Shown: positions 47,095 through 64,000 of the stretch, piece after piece | Layout of the letters: each line of letters begins with the position of its first letter | Numbering within the stretch: the stretch's first letter is position 1 | Assembly: GCA_016936075.1 (NCBI GenBank) | Contig: JAFGPS010000195.1 | Location: 1 to 64,000, forward strand | Source: Sedimentisphaerales bacterium | GTDB lineage: Bacteria; Planctomycetota; Phycisphaerae; Sedimentisphaerales; Anaerobacaceae | Length of the DNA stretch: 64,000 nucleotides | Direction of reading: 5' to 3' | Made by a program: the position numbers and the translations under genes | The notes under the pieces: generated by a model | Database searches by the model: none | What the model was told of the DNA's origin: nothing | The model's input: the letters and a program-made list of their open reading frames with translations, nothing else

Positions 47095-47811
47095 ATGAAT
47101 GGAATTAATGCCTCAAAGTATTGGAAATTTTTTGACCAAGTTTATTGTATTTCTGTATTAAACCGAACGGAACGGCGTGCAGAAGCTCAAAAACAGTTTG
47201 AAAAAGTCGGACTTAAGGACAAAGTAGAATTTGTGGTAGTTGAGAAAAATATTGAGAGTCCCGAAAAAGGAATTTATGATTCTCACTTAGCCTGTATTCG
47301 TAAAGGTCTTCAAGCCGGTGCATCACGAATTCTTATTTTTGAAGATGATATTATTTTTGATCGCTTTAACACGACCACACTCAGCCGGTGCATAAATTTC
47401 CTGTCAGAATGTTCAGAATGGAACACGCTGCATTTAGGGTGTATTGTTAAGGGCAGCAGAAAGACAAAAAATCCATCAGTCCTTGAGATTTCCTACCGTT
47501 GCCTGACCCACGCTTATGTAATTCATAGCCGGTTTGCTCAAGTCCTTGAGAAAATACCCTGGGATGGAGTGCCTTATGATGGACTATTAGCAAAATATGA
47601 GGGACAATATACAGCATATCCGTCTTTCGCATTCCAAAGTAACTCACCAACAGATAATGATTGCCTCATTCGACTGGATAAGTTCCGAAGAGCAATAGGC
47701 GGCCTAAGAAGAATTCAGAAATTTAACGAGATGTTTTATCACCACAAAACCATCATTATTATCGTGAATATTGTTATCCTGGTTTTGTTGTTGAAATGGA
47801 TAATAACGTGA
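47095..47811 (+). CDS. GT25-family glycosyltransferase with C-terminal membrane anchor
   Basis: 238 residues. 'VYCISVLNRTERRAEAQKQF' is the typical GT25 (LOS glycosyltransferase) N-terminus; 'GIYDSHLACIRKG' and 'RILIFEDDIIFD' (the DD motif) follow. One hydrophobic helix occupies the last 20 residues. GT25 enzymes usually add galactose or glucose to lipooligosaccharide or collagen-like acceptors. First gene of the rightward three-gene operon; the ribosome site is weak. A target in the lipid product of the adjacent locus is plausible. Confidence 0.82.
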   Translation: MNGINASKYWKFFDQVYCISVLNRTERRAEAQKQFEKVGLKDKVEFVVVEKNIESPEKGIYDSHLACIRKGLQAGASRILIFEDDIIFDRFNTTTLSRCINFLSECSEWNTLHLGCIVKGSRKTKNPSVLEISYRCLTHAYVIHSRFAQVLEKIPWDGVPYDGLLAKYEGQYTAYPSFAFQSNSPTDNDCLIRLDKFRRAIGGLRRIQKFNEMFYHHKTIIIIVNIVILVLLLKWIIT

Positions 47812-47836
47812 ACAACGAATAAGCAGAAAGAACTCA

Positions 47837-49252
47837 ATGAGAATTATAAGAATAAGGTTTATCATTTCACTGGGATTAGTATTGATTTTTGCCGAAATCA
47901 CACCGTTCACCAATGTTTTTAATATCTCCCCCGGTGAAATAAAAAAGGACAAGCAAGTAGTTCTTTTCGAGCAGAGTCAGAAAACCGACTTGTTCACATA
48001 CAGCAGCCTTGTATCCGGCGATGGTTATAATTCATATCCATTGTATTCCAGCCTTCTATCTGGAATACAAATATTTGAGCTGGAGCTCTTCACCCAGAAA
48101 TCAGAAAGCGAAAGATATTTCATTTTTGCCAGGATGAGTTTAATCATTTTTATCAGTTGTACTATATTTCTATGTTTAATGTTGATGAACGTAAGGCTGA
48201 CTATTTTGTCTCTGGTACCTGTGTTCTTATCCCTTGTATGCACACTTGGACTTCTGATGCTTGCAGTGCAATCACTGAATGTTTTCGGTCTTTTATTGGC
48301 CTTAAGCCTCCCCGTTTTGAGCACTTTTAGTTCCTTTCTTATAGTACGTTTTTATCAGCGTTACCATAATCAGGCTTTTGGCATTTTAGACCGGAAACGA
48401 CTTTCAGTCTTTATTGGTTTTGCAGCCACCATGGCCGGTTTGGGATTCATGTTTACAACAAACCATAATCTTTTTAAAGGTCCCGGCTTACTTGTACCAG
48501 TGGGTATCGGGTTTATCACTATCGGAGCTTTTGTTATTTTACGATATTTACTATTCTGGTTTGACAGAAAGGAATCCGGAAAAAAATGTCTGTCAGAGAA
48601 TTTACAGGATAGAGTCATCTGGCGATACCGGAACATGGATGTCTATTCACGTTTTTTTGGTTTTTTTAAAATCCGGCTTGATCCTATGTTTTCTGAGCTT
48701 CCAGGACTTTTAGAAAAAATACCACCTGTAAAAACTATCATTGACATTGGTACAGGTTATGGTGTCCCGGCAGTTTGGTTTTTGGAGAAATTACCGGAAG
48801 TCAGAATCTTTGGACTTGACCCGGATAAGGATAGGATACGAGTGGCATCGCAGGCAATTTCAGATCGAGGAAAAATGACGGTTGGTGGTGCACCAGAGGT
48901 ACCTTCGCCATCAGAATCAGCAGATTTAGCTACCCTGCTGGACGTAATTCAATATATTGATGATGAGGCCTTGGAAATTACCCTGAAACGACTTTCCGAA
49001 AAGCTATGCCCTAATGGAATGATTCTGCTAAGGATATCCGTTCCCCTTGAAAAAGGAAATCCATGGCCATGGTGGATTGAACGAATTCGAGTAAGTACCC
49101 AAAGGATTACGACACATTATCGTTCCGTTAACCAAACAGAGGAAATGCTGCAAAAGGCCGGATTCACCATACAATATACTGGCCCCTCGGGAAAAAATGG
49201 GGACCTGTTCTGGCTTTTAGGAACACTAAAAAAGGATCACCCACTGGGATGA
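47837..49252 (+). CDS. MMPL/RND-exporter transmembrane fragment fused to a SAM methyltransferase
   Basis: 471 residues. The first about 240 hold six hydrophobic segments with an order and spacing like the C-terminal half of an MMPL/RND exporter ('VFGLLLALSLPVL', 'FIGFAATMAGLGFMF'). The rest is a class I methyltransferase: motif I 'IIDIGTGYGVPAVWFL', acidic 'GLDPDKDRIRVAS', 'ATLLDVIQYI'. In aryl-polyene-type loci the exporter and methyltransferase are normally separate; here they are one frame and the rest of the exporter is not seen. The stop overlaps the deacetylase start by 4 bases. A real fusion or a decayed exporter are both open. Confidence 0.75.
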   Translation: MRIIRIRFIISLGLVLIFAEITPFTNVFNISPGEIKKDKQVVLFEQSQKTDLFTYSSLVSGDGYNSYPLYSSLLSGIQIFELELFTQKSESERYFIFARMSLIIFISCTIFLCLMLMNVRLTILSLVPVFLSLVCTLGLLMLAVQSLNVFGLLLALSLPVLSTFSSFLIVRFYQRYHNQAFGILDRKRLSVFIGFAATMAGLGFMFTTNHNLFKGPGLLVPVGIGFITIGAFVILRYLLFWFDRKESGKKCLSENLQDRVIWRYRNMDVYSRFFGFFKIRLDPMFSELPGLLEKIPPVKTIIDIGTGYGVPAVWFLEKLPEVRIFGLDPDKDRIRVASQAISDRGKMTVGGAPEVPSPSESADLATLLDVIQYIDDEALEITLKRLSEKLCPNGMILLRISVPLEKGNPWPWWIERIRVSTQRITTHYRSVNQTEEMLQKAGFTIQYTGPSGKNGDLFWLLGTLKKDHPLG

Positions 49253-50070
49253 GTAAACAAAAAGAAAAACATCTTTTTTTATCGCCATTCATAAAACTGG
49301 AAATCATTTGCTTCCTGGCAGCTTTTTGCCTGTTTTTCGTAAACGCTAAGCTTTGCGTACTGCCATTAGTTTGTTTCCTTAGTGTGAGTTTTGCAGCACC
49401 ATTTTTTCCAACGTTTGGTTATTATCTTCCCATTATAAGCAGGGGTAATCCCAACACAAATGCAATTTCCCTAACTTTTGACGATGGGCCTGATTCCGTA
49501 ACTACGCCAGAAGTTCTCAGACTGTTGGAAAAATATAAAGTAAAAGCCACCTTTTTCGTAACAGGTAGTTCCGCAGCCCAGCACCCCTTGCTCATTAAAG
49601 AGATAGTGCGTTCAGGACATACTATTGGCAACCATTCTTATAATCATGACTTGTTTTTGATGTTACGCTCGAAGAAGATATTGAACAGGGAAATTGAATC
49701 TACACAAGAGAAATTAAGCACACTGGATATTTGCCCACTTGTCTTTCGTCCGCCTGTTGGAATTACCTCTCCACGGCTAAAAAAAGTATTGGAAAAACTT
49801 GGTATGATATGTGTAAACTTCAGTTGCCGGGCTGTGGATGGTGGGAACCGGAGAGTAAAAAATATTTCACAAAAAATTCTTAAAAAGGTACAACCAGGCG
49901 ATATTGTGATGCTTCACGATACTTGCCCCAAAAATATGGACCTATTACCATATTGGTTAACAGAACTGGAACTTATTTTGACAGGTATTCGAGAAAAAAG
50001 GTTGGAGATACTGCCGTTATCAGAGCTAATTAATAAGCCGGTAATGCAGCTCAATTCACAAACTCAATGA
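49249..50070 (+). CDS. Membrane-anchored polysaccharide deacetylase (NodB domain)
   Basis: 273 residues. Two N-terminal hydrophobic segments (about 14-60), then the NodB fold: 'AISLTFDDGPD' (motif 1, two Asp), 'SGHTIGNHSYNHD' (motif 2, metal His pair), 'FRPPVGI' (motif 3) and 'VMLHDTC' (motif 5). It removes N- or O-acetyl groups from a glycan or glycolipid at the periplasmic face. Translationally coupled to the upstream fusion gene, so it likely trims the same glycolipid. Confidence 0.9.
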   Translation: MSKQKEKHLFLSPFIKLEIICFLAAFCLFFVNAKLCVLPLVCFLSVSFAAPFFPTFGYYLPIISRGNPNTNAISLTFDDGPDSVTTPEVLRLLEKYKVKATFFVTGSSAAQHPLLIKEIVRSGHTIGNHSYNHDLFLMLRSKKILNREIESTQEKLSTLDICPLVFRPPVGITSPRLKKVLEKLGMICVNFSCRAVDGGNRRVKNISQKILKKVQPGDIVMLHDTCPKNMDLLPYWLTELELILTGIREKRLEILPLSELINKPVMQLNSQTQ

Positions 50071-50137
50071 TTTAAGAATGGCTTCTAAATTAGAAATGAA
50101 AAGAGAGTGTATGGAGAATAAGATATGAATCACCTGA

Positions 50138-51574
50138 TTACAACGAATTTGTTTTGTAATCAGCATGAATATTTCGTAATGCATTGCCATACAAGGCACC
50201 GCGCCACATAAAAAGGAGGATGTCCCTGAATGGAACCTTCACTTTATTTAGTCGCCAGGGATTGTTGCGAAACGCCAGCAAATACAGGAAGGCGAAATTA
50301 CGATAGAATGTTTTCATTGGTATCCTGGTTGGCAGAATTGTATGCATACAATCATAGAAAGTATAGGGATCCAAACAGATAAATTCATCCTTATGTTTTT
50401 TCCATAAGTCAGTACCCGGTGGCGGCGAAAAAACCGTAAAGGTAATTTCCGCAGGAGTAATTAAATCAATGCTCTTACGTAAATTAGCAAAATCCGATTC
50501 AGAAAAATTGGGATGAACCATTAAAGCGGCATGTAAACCAATCTCCAGGTCACGAAGTATCTCAACGGCCTTAAGATTTGTAGATGGTTCTATACCCTTA
50601 TTATAGGATTGCAGGGTTTCCGCTTCCATTGATTCGAGGCCAACATAAAGAATAGTCAAACCAGCCTCTTTCCAAAGACTAAACAATTCCGGATGTTTGC
50701 AAATGGTATCCGCACGGGCCCAACTAACGTAGTTTTTTTGAATATTACGATCAATAAGTAATTTAGCAATCTTTTCGGTACGTTTGGCATTGATAAACAT
50801 TTCATCATCAACAAAATAGATGTGATTCGATTTTATTGAGGCAATCTCATCCACTACATCTTCTGGCGTTCGCTGCATATATTTACCATTGGCCAGAAAA
50901 GGAACTACACAGAAATTGCAATGGTTAGGACAACCAACACTGGTCCTTACTGTGGCAGTTGGAGGAAATAAGGTTTTTAGCACCTGTCCCTTACCCGCAT
51001 ATTGAATACAATAATAATCCGAAGTCTCGATTAAGTCCCTGCGCGGCAAAGGAATCTTTTTGAAATCCGGTAATGATGGCGGCAAAGTATTGGCTAAATC
51101 CGTGAATTTCTTTGATCCAGTCAACAAGAAAACAGAGCTTTCCGGGATAGGTTCTTTTCTGTCAATACATTCGAGAAGCTCAGGCATAACCGATCCACCT
51201 TCCCCTCGAACAACCAGATCGATAGTTCCAGGTAGATTAAAATCAATTGGAACAATAGTAGCGTGAATACCACCTACAAGTATAAAAACCCCATCAAGTT
51301 GACGCTTAGCCATTTGTGAAAGATTCTTGATATTCGATGCCTGATTGGAGTATCCTGTAAAGCCTATCACTTCTGGTTTAAATTTTTTAAGGCGATTATT
51401 AAATACCCTGTCAGTTCGGCTTTCTGTTGTTAAATCCAGAATCTCTACATTGTGTTTGTCCGTATTTATACCGCCAGCAACAATCTCAAGAGCCAGGGGT
51501 TCTAAATGGAGGAATCCTTCCAATCGTTGAGCCACCTTCAATGGTGTCGGCGGTTTGACTAATAGAATATTCAT
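50138..51574 (-). CDS. Radical-SAM/B12-binding protein, first of the lipid locus
   Basis: 478 residues. B12-type Rossmann domain ('EVIGFTGYSNQASNIKNL', 'ILVGGIHATIVP'), radical-SAM CX3CX2C in 'SVGCPNHCNFCVV', and a C-terminal domain of about 100 residues. Such BchE/HpnP-type enzymes methylate or cyclise hydrophobic substrates under anoxia. It is the last gene of the long leftward lipid operon. Substrate unknown; acyl-ACP chains or a lipid product are likely in this context. Confidence 0.85.
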   Translation of the reverse strand: MNILLVKPPTPLKVAQRLEGFLHLEPLALEIVAGGINTDKHNVEILDLTTESRTDRVFNNRLKKFKPEVIGFTGYSNQASNIKNLSQMAKRQLDGVFILVGGIHATIVPIDFNLPGTIDLVVRGEGGSVMPELLECIDRKEPIPESSVFLLTGSKKFTDLANTLPPSLPDFKKIPLPRRDLIETSDYYCIQYAGKGQVLKTLFPPTATVRTSVGCPNHCNFCVVPFLANGKYMQRTPEDVVDEIASIKSNHIYFVDDEMFINAKRTEKIAKLLIDRNIQKNYVSWARADTICKHPELFSLWKEAGLTILYVGLESMEAETLQSYNKGIEPSTNLKAVEILRDLEIGLHAALMVHPNFSESDFANLRKSIDLITPAEITFTVFSPPPGTDLWKKHKDEFICLDPYTFYDCMHTILPTRIPMKTFYRNFAFLYLLAFRNNPWRLNKVKVPFRDILLFMWRGALYGNALRNIHADYKTNSL

Positions 51575-51604
51575 AAATACCTTTGCTACTCCCTATATGT
51601 ATTA

Positions 51605-52939
51605 TTAACAGGATATTCCCAAACATGCATTCCGGGCAACAGTTATCAATTCTTGTTTTTGGTTACAATCAATCATCCCGTGATGCAAAGTAATAGACAT
51701 ATTCAAACGTTTGCCAAATTTATTAAAATAAATCCCCGCTCCAGTTTGCACTGGTATCCGGGGGTAATGAAACACATTAATAAGACGCCTTCCACAGAAA
51801 AAACCTTCCTTAATATTACACTTGTGTAGAAAAGCAAAATTAAACGAACCAAAAAAGACGTGCATCCAGGTTGACATCATATTACCGAGTATCTTTTTCG
51901 GCATGATTCGCATCAACAACATAACTTTTGAGAGTTTTTCAGGATATTTTTCTTTTGTGTTTTCATAGAATTGCTGCTTAAAAATATTAATTATACCTGA
52001 ACGATCATCTAAGTCTGCCTGACTAATTTTAAAAAACATAAAAGAAAGATAGTTAAAAAAAATCGCCGGCTGATTTGGCGATAGATAACGCTGATCTACA
52101 CTGCAACTGGCAAGAAAATCCTCTTCGGACGCATTCACACTTTTCGCTAAATACCTGAAAACCATAGCAGCTACATATAGTCCATATGGCAAGGTCATCA
52201 AGTAACCGGCGTGGTTCTGGACCTGGTTTTGAAATTGCAACGTTTCTTCGTCATTTAAAAAAACAGAAATATGATCCTGATACTGCTTTTTAAATGGGGT
52301 TGTTAGAAAAAGATTCGGTTTCTCCAGCAACTTATAGCGACATTGAATTACGGCTTTTCCACAAAGAAAATTTTCACGCCAGTGATCAAGATGCGCCGGC
52401 TCAGTCAATCGAATCTCTTTGCATACCTGATCCGGTTTAATCTGTTTGGAAAAAACTTTTTCCAGTAAACTTAAAAATGACTCTGCGCCATACGCATCAA
52501 AGAGACGATGATCAAACTGCATTGCCAGATAACATCGATTCAATCCTACCTGCAAAATCCGAAAACATAAATAATCCAAATCGCTTTCAAATGGCTTGTT
52601 CGCCCACTCTTCAAGAATAGATAGAACCGCTTCTTGTTTAACGTCATCTTCAATTGTCTTTAAAATCACTGAGACATTCACGCTCTTTTTGCGATTCGAA
52701 GCCCAAAAAGGTGCCAATGTCCAATCACGTCTTACCTTGCCGGTAAAGAAAGGAATCACTTCGGTGACTTGCCGAATAGTCTTCTTGAAATCTTCTAACT
52801 CAAACACTCCCTCCATTTCAAGAACAACCATTGAACTATTGCCCAAACCAGTTGCTTTAAGCGTGTTATAATGGAGCGCATGAACAAGCCAATCGTCACC
52901 TCTTAAATAACGTTTTGATTTAGAGCAGGGTATCCTCAA
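51605..52939 (-). CDS. Condensation-domain/WS-DGAT-like acyltransferase
   Basis: 444 residues of the BAHD/NRPS-condensation-type fold. The HHXXXDG catalytic motif appears as 'MQFDHRLFDAYGAES': the second His is kept, the first is Asp, and the final Gly is Ala. The active His still has its spacing to Asp. It would join an acyl chain from the adjacent acyl carrier protein to an alcohol or amine, or act as a lipid esterifying enzyme. It overlaps the acyl carrier protein gene by 4 bases. Assignment rests on this motif and on overall pattern. Confidence 0.65.
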   Translation of the reverse strand: MRIPCSKSKRYLRGDDWLVHALHYNTLKATGLGNSSMVVLEMEGVFELEDFKKTIRQVTEVIPFFTGKVRRDWTLAPFWASNRKKSVNVSVILKTIEDDVKQEAVLSILEEWANKPFESDLDYLCFRILQVGLNRCYLAMQFDHRLFDAYGAESFLSLLEKVFSKQIKPDQVCKEIRLTEPAHLDHWRENFLCGKAVIQCRYKLLEKPNLFLTTPFKKQYQDHISVFLNDEETLQFQNQVQNHAGYLMTLPYGLYVAAMVFRYLAKSVNASEEDFLASCSVDQRYLSPNQPAIFFNYLSFMFFKISQADLDDRSGIINIFKQQFYENTKEKYPEKLSKVMLLMRIMPKKILGNMMSTWMHVFFGSFNFAFLHKCNIKEGFFCGRRLINVFHYPRIPVQTGAGIYFNKFGKRLNMSITLHHGMIDCNQKQELITVARNACLGISC

Positions 52940-53190
52940 GAAGACTCTCTTTTTAATGCAATATATTCAGATATTGATTTGATCGTCTGTATATCTTTCA
53001 TTTCTATCCCGGCTTTCATCAAGTCAATACCAAATTCCGTTTCAATAAAGATAAACAGTTCAACTAACCGCATCGAATCGACACCTAAAGTATGCAACGG
53101 CACATCTATTTCCGGTTTTATTTTCTGTTGCGGCAATAATTGCATCAACTTGCTTTCAAGCATTTTTTGTATTTGCTGTTTATCTAACAT
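52936..53190 (-). CDS. Acyl carrier protein (second of two)
   Basis: 84 residues, helical, with the phosphopantetheine site Ser39 in 'TLGVDSMRLVEL'. The Ser context (DSM rather than DSL) and basic C-terminus differ from a housekeeping AcpP. It is next to the dead ketosynthase and the condensation-like acyltransferase, so it probably holds a growing or finished acyl chain for them. Confidence 0.88.
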   Translation of the reverse strand: MLDKQQIQKMLESKLMQLLPQQKIKPEIDVPLHTLGVDSMRLVELFIFIETEFGIDLMKAGIEMKDIQTIKSISEYIALKRESS

Positions 53191-53203
53191 GATTTTAATC
53201 CCT

Positions 53204-54220
53204 CTATTTTTGCTTCCTTACAATAATTTGTTGATTATCATGATTGGGATATTCCCGACAAGCAATGGCATTCAAAGATTGTTTAACAATATTCTGTTTC
53301 TGCATTGCCGGTGATCCAAATCGAAGCCCCTGATAAATTTTCTGTTTTTGTATAGTAGCCGCTGCAATTGCAGCATGAAAGGCAATACTTGAGAAAGTAT
53401 GACCGAAAATCGGGGCATAGCATAACGCCGGTAATACATCTCGGTCGCCTTGAGATATTTGTTCGGCGTTGACTAAATACAAATCAGTTTTGTCCGTCCA
53501 GCTTTCCACATCAATCATTAAATCCTGATCTGTATTGGGGGATTTCGATAATAGAAAAAAAACCGCCCCTTCACCGGGGATATAACCATTGTTTTCAAAT
53601 GGATCGATTTGACCCATCCTGGAAATTATCAACTTACGACTTAAAATGTATGCTAACACATTGCCAAACTCTTCGCCGGCACCAACAAGAACCTGATCAC
53701 AACGGCCGTTATTTAACCATGCCTGAGCCAGAAGGAGCACCTGAATAAACGAATTGTTAAACTGCGCAATTGTAGAAGTCGGACCTGTAATATGTAATGC
53801 CTGGGCAATATAAGAGACTGCCAGATTATGAACCGAATGAGTAAACTTTGTTGGTGAACTGCCGGTATCGCCATATGCAAGTATTTCCTCTAAAAAGTCA
53901 AAGGAAGTTGTGTGAGGTCCGAGACTCGTTGCAAACAGAATCCCGGTGCGGCTCGGATCTGATAACGACCGGCCACTTTGTTCGATGGAATCAAGTGCAG
54001 CTAATGTCACAATCCGTGAAAACCTATCGGCTCGACGCATGGCACGCGGCAAAATTCGATCTCCCAAACATTGCGATGCAATACGAAAGACAGGAAACGG
54101 GTCCTTCACCATTGATACAGTTATAAACTCAGGTTCCGAGGGACCATTTTCCAAATCTGAAATCAATGTAGAAATGCCGCGCCCCTTGGAATATATCAAG
54201 CCTAAACCGGAGATAAACAT
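53204..54220 (-). CDS. Ketosynthase-like chain-length-factor, catalytically dead
   Basis: 338 residues of the thiolase/KAS fold. The active cysteine position is Asn155 ('TSTIAQFNNSFIQV') and the first His is Glu253 ('VNAEQISQG'); the second His (H274 in 'FGHTFSS') is kept. This is the pattern of a chain-length factor partner rather than a condensing enzyme. The intact ketosynthase gene starts directly upstream, with 2 bases between the stop and start, as in type II polyketide and aryl-polyene sets. The start ATG 54220 overlaps the ketosynthase end slightly. Confidence 0.85.
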   Translation of the reverse strand: MFISGLGLIYSKGRGISTLISDLENGPSEPEFITVSMVKDPFPVFRIASQCLGDRILPRAMRRADRFSRIVTLAALDSIEQSGRSLSDPSRTGILFATSLGPHTTSFDFLEEILAYGDTGSSPTKFTHSVHNLAVSYIAQALHITGPTSTIAQFNNSFIQVLLLAQAWLNNGRCDQVLVGAGEEFGNVLAYILSRKLIISRMGQIDPFENNGYIPGEGAVFFLLSKSPNTDQDLMIDVESWTDKTDLYLVNAEQISQGDRDVLPALCYAPIFGHTFSSIAFHAAIAAATIQKQKIYQGLRFGSPAMQKQNIVKQSLNAIACREYPNHDNQQIIVRKQK

Positions 54221-54221
54221 C

Positions 54222-55400
54222 TTAATCGCCCTCTCGTTTCAGAACCAGTGCCGCATTGTTACCCCCGAATGCAATCGAAGTGGATAATGCATAAGCCTTG
54301 GAAACAGTCGTTTTTTCCTGAGTGGGAACTAATAAAATTTCCTCATCTTTATTCTTGTATCCTGTCGTGGCTGGAATCCATCCAGAAAGTAATGCTGCTC
54401 CGCTATACACAGCTTCAATCGCACCGGCTGCACCCAAAGTGTGCCCTGTATAGGCCTTGGATGACACAACCGGAACGCCTGGCAAATATTCCAAAAGGAC
54501 CTGTCCTTCGACTTTATCATTCTCTCGAGTAGCTGTACCATGAGCATTGACAAAGGCAATATCATTAAAAGTCACACCAGCCTGGTCAAAAGCTGTCTGA
54601 ATAGACCTCTTAAGACTGGTCCCTTCAGGAAGAGGACGAGTCAGGTGGTAAGCATCGTTGGAGGCTCCGTAACCACAAAGACGTAACCAGGGCTTATCTT
54701 TCCTCCCATGAAGCCGCTTTCGGCTTTCCAATATTAACACCCCTGCTCCTTCACCTAAATTGAGTCCTTCTCGATCTCGATCAAAGGGTGCACAGAGTTT
54801 ATCGCTACTGACACCCAAAGCATGAAAGCCGCTTACAGAAACACGGTTCAGTTCATCAGCACCACCTGCAATGGCGACATCACAATAACCTGCTTTTAAC
54901 CAATCAGCCGCTATACCAATTGCATCCGCTCCGGATGAACAGGCATTGACAACTGTTACATGAGGTCCATGAGTGCCAAGCATCAGAGCTACAGCTTCAG
55001 CAAGGTTTCCTTTTAAGAAGGTATCTACTGAAGACAGGTCATTGTGCCTTTGTTCACGATAATCCGAATAAAACGGCAAATCATTCAACTGGCAGGCAAC
55101 TGTTGTCCCCATAGCAATACCCACACGCAATTTAGTCATATCAGGTAAAGCGGCCATTTCCAATGCCTGCTTCAATGCCTTTTCTAAAAGACAAAGAGTA
55201 CGCATCTTACCAGTCGGAACATTTATATCCGGCACATCAAAGAACGGCCCTTTTAAAGGTGATTTTAGCCATCCTGCATCGCTGGCGCAACGTTGGCCAT
55301 TCTCCATTGATATAAGCGCAGATGATAAATCTGAACCTGCAGCAGATATTACCCCGACACCAGAGATATAAATATCAATTTGGTCGTCAGTTGATATCAT
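54222..55400 (-). CDS. Beta-ketoacyl-ACP synthase (FabF-like), active
   Basis: 392 residues with a full triad: Cys154 in 'VVNACSSGADA', His287 in 'VNAHGTATREND' and His320 in 'AYTGHTLGAAG', plus the C-terminal 'SIAFGGNNAALVL'. It condenses malonyl-ACP with an acyl-ACP. It is flanked by an acyl carrier protein gene (1-base gap) and the dead ketosynthase partner, forming a minimal KS-CLF-ACP set that would fix chain length. Confidence 0.93.
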   Translation of the reverse strand: MISTDDQIDIYISGVGVISAAGSDLSSALISMENGQRCASDAGWLKSPLKGPFFDVPDINVPTGKMRTLCLLEKALKQALEMAALPDMTKLRVGIAMGTTVACQLNDLPFYSDYREQRHNDLSSVDTFLKGNLAEAVALMLGTHGPHVTVVNACSSGADAIGIAADWLKAGYCDVAIAGGADELNRVSVSGFHALGVSSDKLCAPFDRDREGLNLGEGAGVLILESRKRLHGRKDKPWLRLCGYGASNDAYHLTRPLPEGTSLKRSIQTAFDQAGVTFNDIAFVNAHGTATRENDKVEGQVLLEYLPGVPVVSSKAYTGHTLGAAGAIEAVYSGAALLSGWIPATTGYKNKDEEILLVPTQEKTTVSKAYALSTSIAFGGNNAALVLKREGD

Positions 55401-55685: not shown

Positions 55686-55819
55686 TATTTCTCCGTAATT
55701 TTCCTTTTTTGTAGGTCACTATCAACCATAAAAGTACTCTTTTAATATTTCAGATTTCTAAGTATAAAATAAAATGAACTTTATCAAAAAGAATTGTATG
55801 TTATTTTAGGTATTTCTAT

Positions 55820-56428: not shown

Positions 56429-57305
56429 TTGTAGTCTCCCAAATATTATCAAAGATATAATACTGAAGAGGGAATCTATCCAAAAATTCTTCCAAAGAAG
56501 ATGCGTATTCCTGTACAAACGGTCCCCAACGTTCGGTCATCGTTCCCCTTCGGGACATTTTTGGTTCAATAACTTTGGCAATCTTAACTTCGTAAGTCAA
56601 AGAATCTACCTTTGCCGAAGATAAAACCGCTACTGGACAACGAGCACCTGCAGCGATTCGAAAGGCACTGTATGGCAAATAGGCCTTATCACCAAACAAC
56701 GTAACTTCAACCTGATCACTCTGATAACTCCTATCTCCCATAATACTAACAATCTGACCATTAGAAAGAGCCTGCATCATTTCAACTACGCCACCCAGGT
56801 GCTTATCAGTATTAATGATATGAATATTACCACGCTCCTGATCAACTTTAAGTGCGTTGCGCACAGCCTGGTTATCTTCGGCACGCATTAACAAATAGAC
56901 TTTTTTTTCAAGTGTTTCCAAGGCATACATCACCAACTGCCAGTTACCAACATGAGAAGTAAGAAGAATAAATCCGTTTTCGTTACGAAGAAGTTCCTTT
57001 AGAGTTTCGATTCCATTAAACTTAATATCAAAAGGCTCGTAACCAGCCATTAAAACAAATCTATCAATAAGGTTCTTACCTTGATTGACAAAGAGAAGAT
57101 AAACATAGAAATATCGTTTTAAAAACTTTGCCTTTGGAAATCGACGCTTAATGTAGGGCAATACCGATTGTACGGCTTGCCTATCAAAAAGAACATAATA
57201 GAGGCATACGATATATAAAAAACCGTAGGCCCCTCGTAATCCGGTAGCACGCACCAGAATTTGAAAAAACCAGAATCCAAAACGATTTCCTCTTTTCCTG
57301 GTCAT
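56412..57305 (-). CDS. LpxL/HtrB-like lysophospholipid acyltransferase with His-X4-Gln
   Basis: 297 residues. 'FILLTSHVGNWQLVMYAL' stands at the HX4(D/E) catalytic site of the LpxL family, but the acid is Gln. 'VSIMGDRSYQ' and 'VAVLSSAKVDS' are the later conserved blocks. Membrane-anchoring N-terminus. It would add an acyl group from the locus ACP to a lipid head group; the missing acid leaves its activity in doubt. The stop overlaps the PagL-like start; its ATG overlaps the glycosyltransferase stop by 4 bases. Confidence 0.82.
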   Translation of the reverse strand: MTRKRGNRFGFWFFQILVRATGLRGAYGFLYIVCLYYVLFDRQAVQSVLPYIKRRFPKAKFLKRYFYVYLLFVNQGKNLIDRFVLMAGYEPFDIKFNGIETLKELLRNENGFILLTSHVGNWQLVMYALETLEKKVYLLMRAEDNQAVRNALKVDQERGNIHIINTDKHLGGVVEMMQALSNGQIVSIMGDRSYQSDQVEVTLFGDKAYLPYSAFRIAAGARCPVAVLSSAKVDSLTYEVKIAKVIEPKMSRRGTMTERWGPFVQEYASSLEEFLDRFPLQYYIFDNIWETTNARDK

Positions 57306-58471
57306 GTGTTTACCTGTAATGGCCTGTACGAAGCTTTTTTTATTTTTAAAATTTGATTGGCCAAATAATAGGTTAAAAACCCAATAAGGATTCCCAAAAT
57401 CGGTGTTATTATCAATGAACCCAAAAACCAGTTTCCTAAGTGATGATGAAAATTATTAAGGACCGCTTCTGTTTTGGCAGAATCTAACCAGGAGCCGTTA
57501 CGAATGAAATGACCTAATTCAATACAAGCTAAAGGCACAATTTGTCGAGGGCAAAGAATCTGGACACTCAATGCTATTATCCGATTTAAACTCAAGCGAG
57601 TCGTGACATATAAAACAATAATTATATGAGTCCAAATTAAAGGCAGAGTCGCTAATATAACACCCAATCCCGCAGCAACTGCTATTTCTATAGGAGTTGA
57701 ATTTTCCTTAAATAAATGAGACAAAAATGATTTTGGATTGCGAAACAATTTGCCAAATCCTGAGACTGGCTTACGAACAAGTTTTTTATACGGCCACAGA
57801 CTTAAGCGTCTCCCAATCAATCGTGTATGCATCCAGGTCAAACGTAAGTTATCTTTCCATGGATCGAACCTGGTGACACGTTCTTCCCGTGGAGCATACC
57901 AGGGTTTAATCGGTACTTCCTGAACCTTCAATCCATGCCAAAGTGCTTTGACTAAGACTTCAATCTCAAAATCAAAATAACACGCGGAGAGATTCATATT
58001 CGTAAGCATATCAACCGGATAAGCTCGAAAACCACTCTGTGAGTCACTTAATGAGACTCCAGTTTCACGCTTAACCCAGAAATTGGAAAACAACCGACCA
58101 AATCGGCTGGAATCAGGTATGTTTTCAACCGTAAAATCGCGAGCACCGATAATTATTTTTTCTGGTTTTCCCTGCATCAATGCCAGAAATTTTGGTATAT
58201 CCTCTGCTTTATGTTGACCATCAGCATCTACTATCAACATCCAGTCGGCTTTTCTATATTCTGCGGCTTTTAACCCGGTTAGAAGAGCTTGTCCCTTTCC
58301 GCGATTTTCATCGTGACGAATAACTTCTATATCCGTTTCAGAAAATAACTGTACAATATCGACATCTGTTGAGCCGTCGTCAACGACCAGAACATTCTCG
58401 ACATACTTGCGACAATCCAATGCAACCTGCCGGACTGTTGCCTGGTTGTTATAAACTGGTATTACACACAA
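57302..58471 (-). CDS. GT2 glycosyltransferase fused to DUF2062 membrane domain
   Basis: About 389 residues. The GT-A domain begins at once with 'CVIPVYNNQATVRQV', then 'LVVDDGSTD', 'LIVDADGQHKAEDIP' (DXD region) and 'SDSQSGFRAYP'. The C-terminal about 150 residues contain the hydrophobic DUF2062 block. No ATG precedes the domain in frame: TTG at 58471, or an upstream CTG (about 58525) behind GGGGAG, must be used. This GT2/DUF2062 pair with an LpxL-like acyltransferase is a common unit of aryl-polyene-type loci. Confidence 0.85.
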   Translation of the reverse strand: MCVIPVYNNQATVRQVALDCRKYVENVLVVDDGSTDVDIVQLFSETDIEVIRHDENRGKGQALLTGLKAAEYRKADWMLIVDADGQHKAEDIPKFLALMQGKPEKIIIGARDFTVENIPDSSRFGRLFSNFWVKRETGVSLSDSQSGFRAYPVDMLTNMNLSACYFDFEIEVLVKALWHGLKVQEVPIKPWYAPREERVTRFDPWKDNLRLTWMHTRLIGRRLSLWPYKKLVRKPVSGFGKLFRNPKSFLSHLFKENSTPIEIAVAAGLGVILATLPLIWTHIIIVLYVTTRLSLNRIIALSVQILCPRQIVPLACIELGHFIRNGSWLDSAKTEAVLNNFHHHLGNWFLGSLIITPILGILIGFLTYYLANQILKIKKASYRPLQVNT

Positions 58472-58518
58472 TATCCCGTGTATGGAATACTGTTTCGGTT
58501 CTGGTTCGGTTTGAGATT

Positions 58519-59865
58519 TCAGACTGAATTTCTCCCCAGTAAATCATAGATTCTGCTGCAACTGTATCTCATCTTCTGCAATAGATGCAGTTTTTCGTCC
58601 AGGCTGTTAGGAGGAAAAACACAATTAAATTTGTCAGCGAAAGCCTCTGTTAATGTTTTTTCCAGCCATTCAGTATCAAGTCCAGGTGAAATATAATAGA
58701 CTGATTCAAACAAATCATCATCACGGCTAATAATACCTTCGCGAATCGCAAGCCTGGCAAGCGGCGTTCCTGGTAAAACGCGAATGCCCATAAAAATAAA
58801 ATTCGCTGTTTGGCGCAAACTGCAAATATTTTCTATTCCCTCGAACACGGTTTTTTTAGTTTCCCCTGGACCACCAAACATATAATAAAACGCAGTTGCG
58901 ACACCGTGTTTTAAAAACAACTCGTTCGAATTGATAATATCTTTAAACAAAAAATCTTTACCCAGACCTTTCAAAGTTGTATCAGTGGTAGCATCAGCAC
59001 CTATTTCAGCAGCTTCAAGCCCGGTTAATTTCATCTTCTCAATAATCTCGTCATCAAGTCCTTTATCAGGGGTAAAAAATGCCATCCATGGAATACGAAC
59101 CTTTCTCCTTATCATTTCATCTATCAGATTGCGATAAAGCCCTTCAGAGTCATTGAACACAGAATCAACGAAAAAGATATGCCCTGCATTGAAATTCTCA
59201 TGAAGATTCAACAGGTCATCAACAATTTTCCCAGGATTACATACTCTAATCTTACTACCTTCAAGTACTGGATAAGAACAATACACACATCTTTTATTGC
59301 AGCCTCGTTTAGTTTGTATGGAAACTATATAACCTTTTTCCTGGTAAAACTTTAGTATCTCGCTATCATAATATGTACTGGGAATATCGTCATTCTCAAG
59401 ATCTTTTTCTGCATATATAACTGGCTCAACCGGTTTCTCTCCACGTTCTAAGGCCGAGACAAATTTTAGTATTGCCTTTTCCCCTTCACCGACAATACCG
59501 TAATCTGCACCTGTTTGTTTTAAAGTTGGCAAAGGTAAAATTGAAAAACCTGATCCTCCAAGAATAACAGGTACCGTTGAAATATTATGAACTGTCTGTA
59601 CAATTGATTTAACTGTATCTATGTAACATTCCTCATCAATCAAATTTACATTATCTATATTGCGAATTGAAATTCCTATTAGATCTGGAGAAACCGACTG
59701 TACAGCCTTGATTAATTTATCTAAAGACATCTCATTCTGCAGAAAATCGAATTGTGTCACCTCATGCCCATTGCTTTTGAGCGAGGCGGTAACCATCCCC
59801 ATACCCAACGGAAAGACTGGATACGGCGAGGTCGCAATATTAGCGGATATCATCAGTATTTTCAT
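58519..59865 (-). CDS. Radical-SAM/B12-binding protein, second of the lipid locus
   Basis: 448 residues. N-terminal B12-type domain ('LIGISIRNIDNV', 'VILGGSGFSILPLP', 'YGIVGEGEKAIL'), radical-SAM motif CX3CX2C in 'KRGCNKRCVYCSYP', C-terminal tail of about 100 residues. It resembles proteins labelled lipid-biosynthesis B12/radical-SAM in databases (from memory). It overlaps the next radical-SAM gene by 4 bases, so the two are made together. Confidence 0.86.
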   Translation of the reverse strand: MKILMISANIATSPYPVFPLGMGMVTASLKSNGHEVTQFDFLQNEMSLDKLIKAVQSVSPDLIGISIRNIDNVNLIDEECYIDTVKSIVQTVHNISTVPVILGGSGFSILPLPTLKQTGADYGIVGEGEKAILKFVSALERGEKPVEPVIYAEKDLENDDIPSTYYDSEILKFYQEKGYIVSIQTKRGCNKRCVYCSYPVLEGSKIRVCNPGKIVDDLLNLHENFNAGHIFFVDSVFNDSEGLYRNLIDEMIRRKVRIPWMAFFTPDKGLDDEIIEKMKLTGLEAAEIGADATTDTTLKGLGKDFLFKDIINSNELFLKHGVATAFYYMFGGPGETKKTVFEGIENICSLRQTANFIFMGIRVLPGTPLARLAIREGIISRDDDLFESVYYISPGLDTEWLEKTLTEAFADKFNCVFPPNSLDEKLHLLQKMRYSCSRIYDLLGRNSV

Positions 59866-61142
59866 TTTATCTCTTTATTCCCGGTACTATCATATTCCGA
59901 AAGCCAGCGTCTTCGACGTCTTTTAACAGGATGATAAGTTCCGTCCATAACTTCCCGTTTGATGACTGACATGTACAATTTGCCCATTTTTAACTCTTTT
60001 TCTCCAGGACCATAAAATGTATCCCACGCATATTGATGAAGTCGGTCGAGATCATCAACCGACATTTTAGCTGGTTTGAATACTGTCTGTGCACCAGTAT
60101 AACGAATCCAATCATTATGAAGAATACGATTTTCTTCGATCAGCTTTTGACGAATTGGAGAATGTGGAAATGGTGTCATCACAGTGAATTCGGCAAGGTC
60201 AAGTTCTACTTCAAGCAGAAAATCAACCAGTCGCTTTATCGAATCTTCATCATGATCATCAGTTCCCAATATTACTGTAGCTTCTACACCTATTCCTCGA
60301 TCCTTCAAAGACTTGATAACTTTCCGAATATGATCGGAAGTATCAATCACAGCCTGATACACATACCAACTTCCTGCTGCCGCTGCGAGATCAAGCAATT
60401 CATCATCCAAACCGATTGGATGCGAAACCCATTTCTTTTTCAAAGGAGCTATCGCCCGAAACAGGTCCTTGGTCCATTCAATATCCTGTGCAAAGGAATT
60501 ATCTACGAAAAACAAACGATTGTTATCAATCCCTTCTAATTCTTCGACTACCTTATCGATGGGTCGAGGCCGAAACTGACGACCACCCAAAAAAGGTGTA
60601 CAACAAGGAAAACAATTGAATCGACAACCTCGTGAAGCGTGGACAAGATCAACCATCTGCACACCACGATAGTTATAAAGTTCACGATTAAGAATATCAC
60701 GACGTGCAGAGCCGATTAGGTTCATATTAGGAAACGCACGACGATAATCATAAACTTTTTTAAGTTTTCCATTCTTAAAATCGTCGAGTACTTTATCAAT
60801 ATATCCCTCAGCCTCTCCAAGAAAAACAGAATCGGCGTGTAATTGAGACTCTTCGCTATGCAGATTAACACCGATTCCTCCTAAAATAACTGTCTTTCCC
60901 ATCGCCCGATATTGATCAGCAATTTCCCAACTCCGCGGTATCTGGCAAGTCAACATGCAGGAAATCATAATTAAATCGGCATCTTCATTAAAATCCAGCT
61001 TCTGAACATGCTCATCTGTAAATGATATTTCTATTTCATCGTCAAGTGCTGCTGCAAAGCAAACCGGTCCATGTGGAGGCAGGTGAAAACCCGGTTGATT
61101 TTTCATCTTGGGCCATTTGGCATATATAAGTTTAACCTTCAT
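59862..61142 (-). CDS. Radical-SAM/B12-binding protein, third of the lipid locus
   Basis: 426 residues. B12-type domain ('LIMISCMLTCQIPRSWEIADQY', 'VILGGIGVNLHSEES', 'VFLGEAEGYI'), cluster motif CX3CX2C in 'SRGCRFNCFPCCTP' with an extra adjacent Cys, and a basic C-terminus ('KRRRRRW'). The gene lies 6 bases after the half-ketosynthase stop and overlaps the second radical-SAM gene. Two coupled radical-SAM enzymes beside ketosynthases suggest carbon-skeleton editing of a fatty or polyene chain. Confidence 0.86.
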   Translation of the reverse strand: MKVKLIYAKWPKMKNQPGFHLPPHGPVCFAAALDDEIEISFTDEHVQKLDFNEDADLIMISCMLTCQIPRSWEIADQYRAMGKTVILGGIGVNLHSEESQLHADSVFLGEAEGYIDKVLDDFKNGKLKKVYDYRRAFPNMNLIGSARRDILNRELYNYRGVQMVDLVHASRGCRFNCFPCCTPFLGGRQFRPRPIDKVVEELEGIDNNRLFFVDNSFAQDIEWTKDLFRAIAPLKKKWVSHPIGLDDELLDLAAAAGSWYVYQAVIDTSDHIRKVIKSLKDRGIGVEATVILGTDDHDEDSIKRLVDFLLEVELDLAEFTVMTPFPHSPIRQKLIEENRILHNDWIRYTGAQTVFKPAKMSVDDLDRLHQYAWDTFYGPGEKELKMGKLYMSVIKREVMDGTYHPVKRRRRRWLSEYDSTGNKEIK

Positions 61143-61148
61143 GGTTTT

Positions 61149-61793
61149 TTATGTCCTTTCTGAAGCTTCTTTAATTTTTTTAGCACATTCTGCTATGTTT
61201 TCAGGCAAAAAACTCATATTAAAATGTTCAGTTGCTGCCTTACCGATTCTGACAATCAGTGCCGCCTGATAAAACTCGTCTATAAGATTGATTAGCACAA
61301 ATTTGGCCTGGGCAGTCTGCAACAGGTTTTCTACGGTCTGGATTTCCGAATTCATAGACTCATCCATTGCATCTATATACAGCAAAGGACCCCTAAAGCC
61401 GAAATATATAGCCGCTTCAGCAATGGGACTGCTTGGCAAGGTGTATATAAATAAATTTGCACGCGAGAGTTTACGTCCTCCATCCAGGTAGTCTTGAAAA
61501 AAACGCTGATTAGATGCAATACAACCAGTTTTATTGATTGCCAGAAGTCCTATCTCATGCAACTGTTCACTGTTGGTCAATCCTGCATCGCGCAAGGCAA
61601 GTGTCGTTGCAATAAATAATTTTTGTGTCAACGCCTCAAAGCGTCCGAAATTCTTAATTGTCTCTCGAAAAAGATTGTCTTCAAATCCCAATCGTTCTAA
61701 TGAAACACGATTAGCATAATCAACTTGACTGCGATTGCGGCCTTGGCCGTAACATTGATCATTCAACCATCCTAAACCTAAAATATCTATCAT
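61149..61793 (-). CDS. Half-length ketosynthase-like protein (PF13723-type chain-length factor)
   Basis: 214 residues covering only the N-terminal half of the KAS fold ('ILGLGWLNDQCYGQG' start). The usual catalytic Cys region reads 'GPLLYIDAMDES', with no Cys, and the His motifs are absent. Proteins of this kind occur as partners to ketosynthases in aryl-polyene clusters. It begins 8 bases past the intact ketosynthase stop. A structural or chain-length role is the best guess. Confidence 0.7.
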   Translation of the reverse strand: MIDILGLGWLNDQCYGQGRNRSQVDYANRVSLERLGFEDNLFRETIKNFGRFEALTQKLFIATTLALRDAGLTNSEQLHEIGLLAINKTGCIASNQRFFQDYLDGGRKLSRANLFIYTLPSSPIAEAAIYFGFRGPLLYIDAMDESMNSEIQTVENLLQTAQAKFVLINLIDEFYQAALIVRIGKAATEHFNMSFLPENIAECAKKIKEASERT

Positions 61794-61801
61794 AGCCTTA
61801 T

Positions 61802-62914
61802 TTACCGACTTATGACTAAAGCCGCATTAACCCCACCAAAGCCGGAATTTGTCGTCAAAGCAACCTGACAATCATGACTCTTCTTATTTGTTACGATCCA
61901 ACCCTTCGCATCATCGTCAATTTTATTTATCCTTGAAGAAGGAGGAATAGTTTTCATCTTTAAAAACTGCAATGTTAAAGCAGTTTCCAGCAAACCGGCA
62001 ACTCCCAAAGTATGACCAAGAGCACCCTTAACAGAGAAGGTACAGTGTGGTTGTGAAAAAACTTGTTTAAAAGCTTGCATCTCCATAGCATCATTGTAGC
62101 GTGTTCCAGTGCCATGAGCACAGATGAAGCCAATACTATCAGAATCTATTTCTGCATTGTTGAACGCCAAACGAATAGCACGGGCCAAACCATCTCCATC
62201 ACGTGCCGGACCTGTCATATGATTGGCGTCATTACTTAATCCCCAACCCAAAACATATCCCAAAATTGAACGATGTTCCCGCCTGGCCCGGTCTTCCGAC
62301 ATTAGTAACATATAGCCTGCCGCTTCTCCGAGACTAAGACCTTGACGCTCTGCATCAAACGGTCTTGCACCTTCCGGGTCAAGTGCCATTAAAGAGGAAA
62401 ATCCAGTAAACACAAATTCCGTTACTGCATCGCAGGTTACTATAAGCACTGCATCTTCGTTTTCTGATTCTATTGATGCGGCCGCTAATCCGATTGCGGC
62501 AGTGGATGATGTACATGCGGATGAAACAACGCTCGCCTTACCCTGTAAACCATATAAATCATAAACCTTTTTCAGTAATTCACTCAACTGGCTTTCAGAG
62601 CATTGTTTATTATCTTCCAGGATAGCCTGTTCTAATATATCTACCTCACCTGTGGTGGTTGCCAACAACAAAGCGGCATCATTGGGTATTGCTTTTGGAG
62701 ATAGCTGAGTTAGCATTTGCCAAACTAAAGAAAAATCCTTATGATAGGTAAGACCTTCAATTGTCGCTGCCACAGAACAGCCAAATGATGAAACATCAAA
62801 ACGGTCTACCGGTTTAATGGCACTATGTCCTTCACAAAGATTTGTCCAGCACTTTTCGATACCCAGACCAAATGGTGTCACTATATCACTATCAACGATA
62901 ACAGCCTTACTCAA
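61802..62914 (-). CDS. Beta-ketoacyl-ACP synthase (second active ketosynthase)
   Basis: 370 residues with Cys134 in 'VVSSACTSSTAAIG', His267 in 'CAHGTGTRYND', His301 in 'GALGHTLGVAG' and the C-terminal 'NSGFGGVNAALVI'. The triad is complete. Divergent from the ketosynthase at 54.2 kb. Its ATG overlaps the thioesterase stop by 4 bases, and the half-ketosynthase follows. Probably the second condensing enzyme, as in the two-ketosynthase aryl-polyene systems. Confidence 0.92.
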   Translation of the reverse strand: MSKAVIVDSDIVTPFGLGIEKCWTNLCEGHSAIKPVDRFDVSSFGCSVAATIEGLTYHKDFSLVWQMLTQLSPKAIPNDAALLLATTTGEVDILEQAILEDNKQCSESQLSELLKKVYDLYGLQGKASVVSSACTSSTAAIGLAAASIESENEDAVLIVTCDAVTEFVFTGFSSLMALDPEGARPFDAERQGLSLGEAAGYMLLMSEDRARREHRSILGYVLGWGLSNDANHMTGPARDGDGLARAIRLAFNNAEIDSDSIGFICAHGTGTRYNDAMEMQAFKQVFSQPHCTFSVKGALGHTLGVAGLLETALTLQFLKMKTIPPSSRINKIDDDAKGWIVTNKKSHDCQVALTTNSGFGGVNAALVISR

Positions 62915-63381
62915 TTAAATTCTCCATTGATCCAGCGTTCAATACATGTCTGCCACAGGTCCGGTCCAACAATAAACGGGAGTTTATTTTTAGCGTCGAC
63001 AAACATCTGAACAGTAAAACCACTTGCCGCGAGAGAACCATCCTCTTTGATTACCTGATACTCAACATTTATTCGTGACGCTTCAGTAAAAATCATCTTG
63101 CCGATTACCGTGCAGACTTCATCCAACATTAATGGCTGAAAATAATCAACATGAAACTGGACAACAGGTGCATGGATTGAACATTCGTAAAACTTTTCAT
63201 ATGTTAATCCACACAATCGCCGTAATTCAGTTGAAACCTCTTCGAAGAGAACGGCATAATAGCCATGCCACATCACGGCCATTGCATCAACCTCGCCAAA
63301 ACGAATCCGGCGTTTAAGACTATAGACTATCGGCGACGGATCGCCTGGCTCGCATTTGAAATAAGTTTTTTTTCTACGCAA
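62911..63381 (-). CDS. 4HBT-type acyl thioesterase (YbgC/FadM-like)
   Basis: 156 residues of the hotdog fold. 'RFGEVDAMAVMWHGYY' carries the catalytic Asp and the His of the 4-hydroxybenzoyl-CoA thioesterase family; 'FHVDYFQPLMLDEV' and 'INVEYQVI' follow. It would release or edit acyl groups bound to ACP or CoA. Overlaps genes on both sides (8 and 4 bases), so it is an integral part of the operon. Confidence 0.88.
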   Translation of the reverse strand: MRRKKTYFKCEPGDPSPIVYSLKRRIRFGEVDAMAVMWHGYYAVLFEEVSTELRRLCGLTYEKFYECSIHAPVVQFHVDYFQPLMLDEVCTVIGKMIFTEASRINVEYQVIKEDGSLAASGFTVQMFVDAKNKLPFIVGPDLWQTCIERWINGEFN

Positions 63382-63727
63382 AAGACACCTTCATTTTAAT
63401 GCTCGCGATACGTTGTGTGTCAATTTTAACATTGGCGATAACAGTATTTTCATCAAGTTTACAGTCAAAATTTACCATCTGACCAGGAATAATAACTGTG
63501 AAAAATTTTGAATTTATCAGCTCGGTCATGTAAATTGTTTTGCCTTTGAGCCGCTGGATAAGGACCAGAACAGTTTCCAGCAAACACACCCCAGGCAGGA
63601 TCGGATTCTGAGGGAAATGACCCTGAAATCCGAGAAAGTCCTTATCAAAACAAAGCGTTGCCGTTATCTCATCATCATGTACATTCACTTGCTGGATACA
63701 ACTATCAATCTGCGTCCTAATCGACAT
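63374..63727 (-). CDS. FabZ/ApeI-like hotdog 3-hydroxyacyl-ACP dehydratase
   Basis: 117 residues. 'FQGHFPQNPILPGVCLLE' matches the FabZ active-site segment, with its His and the Glu of the helix; length is below FabZ's 140-150. It would introduce double bases-type unsaturation: removal of water from 3-hydroxyacyl-ACP gives the enoyl chain, and with no enoyl reductase in view a polyene could build up. No ketoreductase is seen in the window. Overlaps the flanking genes. Confidence 0.78.
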   Translation of the reverse strand: MSIRTQIDSCIQQVNVHDDEITATLCFDKDFLGFQGHFPQNPILPGVCLLETVLVLIQRLKGKTIYMTELINSKFFTVIIPGQMVNFDCKLDENTVIANVKIDTQRIASIKMKVSFA

Positions 63728-64000
63728 GAAATTCCTTGGTCCTAATAATCAATTTATAATGGTATTTCTTATTACTTAGAAAAATGCCCTGGGGATAAAA
63801 AGCCTGGGGACTATTCAGGTAATTATAATATTGAATTACAACTCTACTACCTTTATCCATGACTTGCTTTTCTATCAGATTGGCATTAGAGCCTCCAAAA
63901 ACAAAACGAGTCTTACCGCCTTCAGAATTTTTTTGATTAAAAGTAAACTTACAACGGCTGCGTTTCAATGCAGCCGTTGGACTCGGAGTCCAATCAAAAT
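63717..64000 (-). CDS. LolA/LolB-like periplasmic lipoprotein-handling protein, C-terminal part (5' end outside window)
   Basis: The frame stays open to the window edge, so only about 93 C-terminal residues are present; the TTG at 63968 is internal. The ending 'LIEKQVMDKGSRVVIQYYNY...YHYKLIIRTKEFHVD' shows the alternating beta strands of LolA-like or DUF4292-like proteins. Aryl-polyene clusters usually carry a LolA-like gene, which supports the call. The evidence is thin. It overlaps the dehydratase gene by 11 bases. Confidence 0.45.
   Translation of the reverse strand, partial: FDWTPSPTAALKRSRCKFTFNQKNSEGGKTRFVFGGSNANLIEKQVMDKGSRVVIQYYNYLNSPQAFYPQGIFLSNKKYHYKLIIRTKEFHVD

Follow-up and report, generated by a model that had tools for sequence, protein, structure and literature searches.

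A gene cluster combining aryl-polyene-like parts with the radical-SAM genes of anammox ladderane loci in a Sedimentisphaerales bacterium

The candidate ladderane genes of anaerobic ammonium-oxidizing (anammox) bacteria form the locus Kuste3335-3352 (gene list from PMC4790861 and PMC2649909); work in E. coli did not settle how ladderane-type chains are formed (PMC4790861). Clusters of this ladderane type are already known outside anammox bacteria. Desulfotalea psychrophila carries a locus syntenic to the anammox one and contains C31:8/C31:9 hydrocarbons, with no ladderanes detected (Rattray 2009, PMC2649909), and 'ladderane' clusters of unknown product were called by antiSMASH in metagenome-assembled genomes of non-anammox Desulfobacterota, Verrucomicrobiota, Omnitrophota, Planctomycetota and others from the Cariaco Basin, according to PMC9902471. 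A second set of relatives is formed by aryl-polyene (APE) clusters, for which we take the gene roles from PMC8253772. Here we describe a variant of the ladderane-type class, found in the first 64000 bases (hereafter the window) of a 114175-base contig (C32) of a Sedimentisphaerales bacterium (genome 4.36 Mb, 89% complete).

With moderate confidence, we favor the reading that this is one operon-like cluster, in which a type II chain-building and outer-membrane delivery chassis of APE type is combined with the anammox 'ladderane' radical S-adenosylmethionine (radical-SAM) set, and in which a polyene-type chain would be altered by radical and cobalamin chemistry. Its product would probably be an unusual outer-membrane lipid. 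In the literature found, neither the union of these two gene sets, nor the half-ketosynthase identity of Kuste3345, nor the radical-SAM gene beside the anammox locus discussed below is stated. The Cariaco Basin clusters, which we liken by name and phyla, probably belong to the same class. The D. psychrophila loci for type II fatty acid synthesis share, by their published description (PMC2649909), radical-SAM enzymes, phytoene-dehydrogenase-like proteins, ketosynthases (KSs), a membrane protein and an acyl ligase.

An aryl-polyene-like chassis

The cluster is a near-contiguous minus-strand run of about 25 kb (50138 to about 74915), in which neighboring genes overlap or sit within about 150 bases of each other. 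The end of the window cuts through it, as a sequence-only reading of the window had recognized, and the remainder was read by joining the window to C32:64001-84000. From 74915, the minus-strand order is AMP-ligase, FabG ketoreductase, CrtI-like flavoprotein, KS_A, acyl carrier protein (ACP) 1, PlsC, radical-SAM/SPASM protein with a C-terminal hot-dog domain, LolA, MMPL exporter, DUF3261 protein, ApeI-like dehydratase, 4HBT thioesterase, KS_B, half-KS, the radical-SAM protein rSAM2, TIGR04072 B12 radical-SAM protein, GT2-DUF2062, LpxL-like and PagL-like proteins, ACP2, KS_C, dead KS, ACP3, HxxxD acyltransferase and, ending at 50138, HpnR-like B12 radical-SAM protein. The full locus thus has three KSs with intact active sites, along with four radical-SAM proteins. 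The ketoreductase, AMP-ligase, KS_A, one ACP, PlsC, LolA, MMPL exporter, CrtI-like flavoprotein and SPASM/hot-dog fusion lie beyond 64000 (contig 64388-74915). The chain-building, lipid-attachment and delivery genes of the window, together with LolA, are as follows.

51605-52939, minus strand: HxxxD acyltransferase of the condensation/WS-DGAT superfamily, 444 residues (motif, weak Pfam, AlphaFold model)
52936-53190, minus strand: acyl carrier protein 3 (Pfam PP-binding)
53204-54220, minus strand: dead ketosynthase, chain-length-factor-like partner of KS_C (Pfam ketoacyl-synt; Asn replaces Cys)
54222-55400, minus strand: ketosynthase KS_C, triad intact (Pfam; 34% to ApeO, E 2e-56)
55401-55685, minus strand: acyl carrier protein 2 (Pfam PP-binding; 37% to ApeE)
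55820-56518, minus strand: PagL-like lipid A 3-O-deacylase homologue (Pfam PagL, E 2e-12; in 5/30 related loci), its true start probably internal to the open reading frame (ORF)
56412-57305, minus strand: LpxL-like lipid acyltransferase (Pfam Lip_A_acyltrans; matches the C-terminal half of ApeJ)
57302-58471, minus strand: GT2-DUF2062 glycosyltransferase (Pfam; 39% to the N-terminal half of ApeJ, E 1.6e-35)
61149-61793, minus strand: half-ketosynthase, a single thiolase-fold half (profile of 18 relatives)
61802-62914, minus strand: ketosynthase KS_B, triad intact, with half-KS partner (Pfam and active-site check)
62911-63381, minus strand: ApeK-like 4HBT thioesterase (Pfam; 31% to ApeK)
63374-63727, minus strand: ApeI-like hot-dog dehydratase (Pfam FabA/ApeI-like)
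63717-64391 (contig; window part to 64000), minus strand: ApeN-like DUF3261 LolB-like lipoprotein (Pfam DUF3261)
66766-67425 (contig), minus strand: true LolA, found in the contig extension

Nearly all non-radical proteins of the cluster match APE proteins of E. coli CFT073, taken as the reference (blastp; E 1e-4 to 1e-112). KS_A corresponds to ApeR (43%, E 1e-112), with which it also groups in the KS tree at 99 (quick method), and FabG to ApeQ (43%); GT2 and LpxL correspond to the two halves of ApeJ, 4HBT to ApeK, LolA to ApeL, MMPL to ApeM, DUF3261 to ApeN and PlsC to ApeD. An ApeI dehydratase, ACPs, an ApeP-like hot-dog domain and a KS with a half-KS partner are likewise shared. This gene-by-gene match bears out the sequence-only reading, which had assigned most non-radical parts to APE clusters; the KSs, dead KS, half-KS, ACPs, dehydratase, 4HBT, LpxL-like and GT2-DUF2062 proteins it had named are all present by Pfam and active-site checks. 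Its 'LolA-like end' is a DUF3261 (LolB-like) gene, the true LolA lying farther along the contig. The PagL homologue and the HxxxD acyltransferase had not been part of that reading.

In contrast to APE clusters, the locus adds four radical-SAM proteins, a CrtI-like flavoprotein, the HxxxD acyltransferase and an extra pair of KS and dead KS; the SPASM, TIGR04072, rSAM2 and CrtI-like proteins have no blastp matches in the E. coli CFT073 APE cluster. Cys-His-His is retained in KS_A, KS_B and KS_C, while in the dead KS the Cys is replaced by Asn and the catalytic histidines are missing, and the half-KS lacks the active-site Cys. A single-sequence search of the PDB with the half-KS returned nothing significant, and a profile of its 18 relatives matched the N-terminal halves of FabF (E 3e-10). 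In sequence, no ApeC likeness of the half-KS was detected, E. coli ApeC being unmatched by blastp or by the profile; the Foldseek hits include ApeC (6qsp_B; E 5e-4, low TM-score). As in the pairs of KS and chain-length factor of type II polyketide synthases, ApeO-ApeC included (PMC8358021), an active KS is followed by an inactive partner of full length or half size; unlike them, the window cluster holds both partner kinds together.

The HxxxD residues of the acyltransferase (H144 and D148) are invariant in 12 cluster homologues, some of which weakly match the Pfam families Condensation or WS_DGAT_C. Its AlphaFold model (pLDDT 80, pTM 0.85) resembles condensation domains and BAHD acyltransferases, with E down to 6.5e-18. 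MetOD1, matched by one member only, was rejected as its identity in view of the invariant HxxxD and these fold matches.

Radical-SAM enzymes and the anammox ladderane locus

Three radical-SAM proteins with B12-type N-terminal domains had been read from the window, and all three were confirmed; each contains CxxxCxxC.

50138-51574, minus strand: B12-binding radical-SAM protein, HpnR-like (Pfam B12-binding and Radical_SAM)
58519-59865, minus strand: B12-binding radical-SAM protein, TIGR04072 rSAM_ladder_B12 (572.8 bits against a cut-off of 360)
59862-61142, minus strand: B12-binding radical-SAM protein rSAM2 (conserved cysteines; cluster homologues)

The TIGR04072 match is near full length (residues 2-443 align to positions 1-441 of 443). 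rSAM2 scores 26.9 bits against the Pfam Radical_SAM cut-off of 29.5, but C173, C177 and C180 are invariant in 18 relatives, and it is the best conserved protein of the cluster, at up to 73% across phyla. Profile searches place the tryptophan C-methyltransferase 6wte nearest to the TIGR04072 family among solved structures (E 1e-61) and the apramycin enzyme AprD4 (6fd2) nearest to rSAM2 (E 4e-22); the chemistries of the two differ, and therefore neither fixes the reaction of either protein.

Direct comparison upheld the earlier statement that anammox ladderane loci, too, combine KSs, ACPs and radical-SAM enzymes. In blastp, the anammox locus matches the SPASM protein (38%, E 9e-81), the TIGR04072 protein (33%, E 2e-82), rSAM2 (31%, E 1e-60) and the CrtI-like protein (22%, E 3e-10). 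Across five anammox genomes, the genome-wide best match of the SPASM protein lies inside the ladderane locus and that of rSAM2 about 3 kb from the published locus. The rSAM2 homologue is a B12 radical-SAM gene at G127:C1:840213-841556, in a genome that we take to be Kuenenia stuttgartiensis, gene order being part of the basis, with matching places in genomes G391, G204, G293 and G367. This gene is missing from the published candidate list (PMC4790861, PMC2649909).

The half-KS profile also matches (E 1e-9) a 195-residue ORF directly after the Kuste3346-type KS (G127:C1:850418-851005, read from L057 and L058), which by its place in the gene order is the candidate for Kuste3345; orthologues are present in Brocadia and Jettenia-type genomes. 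Kuste3345 is listed as 'unknown' (PMC4790861, PMC2649909). With this match, the window-type and anammox loci both contain a KS with a dead KS and a KS with a half-KS. The half-KS-paired KSs of both types fall on one side of a branch in the KS tree, with modest support (SH-aLRT 82) and together with two rows paired otherwise.

Further shared features are the side-by-side TIGR04072 and SPASM genes with an adjoining rSAM2 homologue, FabG, ACP, dehydratase, MMPL, the CrtI-like protein and GT2. The anammox stretch differs in leaving LolA, DUF3261 and the 4HBT thioesterase unmatched, in a SPASM enzyme unfused to a dehydratase and in its ligase Kuste3344, annotated as phenylacetyl-CoA ligase and unmatched by the window ligase. 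The hydrazine-synthase domain HZS_alpha (PF18582) is absent from the 89%-complete host genome and present in three anammox genomes. We also observed eight HZS_alpha matches in a non-anammox genome with a related locus, Pontiellaceae bacterium B12227 (G425, locus L073); the domain alone is therefore no marker of anammox bacteria.

The window cluster and the related loci L076, L079, L080, L084, L087 and L089 encode the SPASM protein and the hot-dog domain as one fused protein, whereas several other loci encode the two separately and the anammox SPASM protein stands alone. The fusion suggests that the radical enzyme may act on an ACP-bound chain next to dehydration. A different fusion, in which frames of about 660-680 residues join the hot-dog domain to some other N-terminal portion, was seen at L098:3259-5292, L108:4444-6468 and L117:1156-3138.

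The HpnR-like gene is accessory. Its homologues lie inside clusters L076, L080 and L087 (50, 54 and 49% identical). Hopanoid methylation was rejected as its function, the protein scoring 246 bits against an equivalog cut-off of 650 for the hopanoid C-3 methylase HpnR and no squalene-hopene cyclase being found in the 89%-complete genome.

Linkage, distribution and surroundings

Through the TIGR04072 protein we retrieved 80 related loci, 30 of which entered the adjacency count. In 30/30, across many phyla, the TIGR04072 protein comes directly after rSAM2, a count conditional on that mode of retrieval; the same adjacency occurs in three same-family genomes retrieved via rSAM2 and hence independently of it. 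The two proteins therefore belong to the pathway, and their grouping is not due to chance. Across phyla they occupy an unchanged slot, with the half-KS on one side and GT2/LpxL on the other. In the relatives compared, the radical-SAM genes are not unlinked from the KSs.

The closest clusters among the 80 loci come from Verrucomicrobiota and Kiritimatiellota (rSAM2 73%), then from Desulfobacterota and Omnitrophota, with gene order kept. A search of 161 genomes of the host order found rSAM2 at >=60% identity in only four others, all of the same family and 60-63% identical, and in neither of the two same-genus genomes. In the KS tree (quick method), KS_B and KS_C also place the window with Verrucomicrobiota/Kiritimatiellota and not with the same-family clusters. 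Horizontal transfer is the best explanation of this patchy occurrence and KS placement, and we propose that the cluster has probably spread in this way; base composition is uninformative on the point (G+C 0.393 vs 0.383 and 0.371).

A lipoprotein gene and a FAD oxidoreductase gene lie upstream of the cluster; homologues of the latter also occur inside related clusters. Just upstream, at C32:78718-83486 (L002:14718-19486), an ORF for a NifA-like sigma-54 activator is followed by modA/modB/modC-type molybdate-transport-like genes, as read from the letters. A convergent plus-strand group (47095-50070) at the other end contains a GT25-like gene and two further genes:

47837-49252, plus strand: MMPL-like N-terminal stretch with methyltransferase (Pfam Methyltransf_23/25; N-terminal match to ApeM, E 5e-4)
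49249-50070, plus strand: polysaccharide deacetylase (Pfam; homologues in anammox and Geobacter loci)

The first had been read as an exporter fragment with a methyltransferase; both parts are there, but the ORF, being on the plus strand, is outside the operon. Cluster membership of the two genes is uncertain. Since deacetylase homologues occur in the anammox and Geobacter clusters, the convergent group may be accessory to the cluster.

Proposed pathway and its alternatives

Gene content, homologies, linkage and active sites are what the analysis established; from them we infer each chemical step and the product. The AMP-ligase would load a carboxylic-acid starter, probably not 4-hydroxybenzoate, onto an ACP, and KS_A, KS_B with the half-KS and KS_C with the dead KS would elongate it with malonyl units, FabG reducing and the hot-dog dehydratases dehydrating. 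The double bonds are expected to stay, because none of the genes seen in the locus encodes an enoyl reductase (the rest of the genome was not searched for one), which by APE precedent would give a polyene-type acyl-ACP. The SPASM-dehydratase fusion and the rSAM2/TIGR04072 cobalamin pair may then act on the chain while it is ACP-bound, methylating, cyclising or rearranging it as the sequence-only reading had supposed, and flavoproteins may adjust oxidation or double-bond geometry. Thioesterase, GT2 and the LpxL-, PlsC- and HxxxD-type acyltransferases would join the chain to an anchor (a glycolipid or phospholipid), and the anchored product would reach the outer membrane by way of MMPL, LolA and DUF3261. 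Several points weigh against this scheme: no measured product was found in the literature for any member of the cluster class, three KSs and flavoproteins leave room for other kinds of chain, enoyl reductases encoded outside the locus could work on the chain, and the HpnR-like gene is carried by only a few relatives.

The nearly full APE parts list, with ketoreductase, dehydratases, thioesterase, glycosyl- and acyltransferases and the MMPL/LolA/DUF3261 export set, would also suit an ordinary aryl polyene, a conjugated outer-membrane pigment built on a 4-hydroxybenzoyl or coumaroyl starter with the radical-SAM enzymes as minor decoration. The chassis is APE-like, but the aryl character assumed in the sequence-only reading is unsupported, because the 89%-complete genome yielded neither an aromatic ammonia-lyase nor a chorismate lyase. 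The former (PF00221) is also missing from 9 other searched genomes with related loci and present in three; the latter, of UbiC type (PF04345), is missing from 10 genomes including the host, with E. coli as positive control. An ammonia-lyase, ketoreductase and ligase had all gone unseen in the window, and the last two turned out to lie just past 64000. At blastp level the AMP-ligase shows no kinship with ApeH (E 0.12), its nearest solved structures (gramicidin A-domain, oxalyl- and malonyl-CoA ligases) are uninformative on substrate, and no counterpart of ApeB or ApeG was found in the cluster by blastp. As, moreover, radical-SAM proteins are absent from APE clusters and rSAM2 is the most conserved protein of this family, we regard an ordinary aryl polyene as decidedly unlikely. 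Two unrelated pathways that merely adjoin, one APE-like and the other a radical-SAM set of its own, would accommodate the patchy HpnR-like gene at the far end, but are scarcely credible given the constant position of rSAM2 and TIGR04072 and the physical fusion of the SPASM enzyme to a dehydratase.

A polyunsaturated fatty acid or hydrocarbon pathway with flavoproteins and radical-SAM enzymes in desaturation, as proposed for the D. psychrophila loci, draws on the hydrocarbons of that bacterium and on the CrtI-like flavoprotein that the window cluster also has. We consider it unlikely: the lipid acyltransferases and the genes dedicated to outer-membrane delivery suggest a product that is exported and anchored, and the 89%-complete host genome (G000) encodes a single KAS III-type (ACP_syn_III_C) protein, so that there is no OleA candidate and head-to-head (Ole) hydrocarbons are unsupported. 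A true ladderane pathway outside anammox bacteria, in which ring closure by the radical-SAM set would turn a polyene into fused cyclobutanes, would explain why the anammox locus contains SPASM and TIGR04072 proteins and has rSAM2 as a neighbor, with both kinds of KS pair in either locus; it is nonetheless highly improbable, as the host lacks HZS_alpha, D. psychrophila made no detectable ladderanes (PMC2649909) and the anammox stretch has no LolA or DUF3261 match, so that the destination of the product probably differs.

Beyond the favored reading of an APE-type chassis combined with the anammox radical-SAM set, we tentatively raise a broader and rather doubtful proposal: the window and anammox loci may be two branches of one superfamily, in which an APE-type KS-pair machine builds an ACP-bound polyene and the SPASM/rSAM2/TIGR04072 trio performs a shared C-C bond formation. 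If so, the products would be ladderanes in anammox bacteria and, in many other anaerobes, related lipids that are likewise cyclised and reside in the outer membrane. Two little-considered genes, Kuste3345 as a half-KS and the rSAM2 homologue that flanks the published locus, would then count among the anammox parts.

Outside anammox bacteria, too, the anammox radical-SAM set is thus found in the company of a recognizable aryl-polyene chassis, and Kuste3345 and the rSAM2 homologue extend the list of anammox candidate genes by two. One of the carriers is a named strain, Halodesulfovibrio spirochaetisodalis JC271, which may lend itself to gene deletion and lipid analysis; in this way, work on related clusters from cultured bacteria could help to solve how ladderane-type chains are made.

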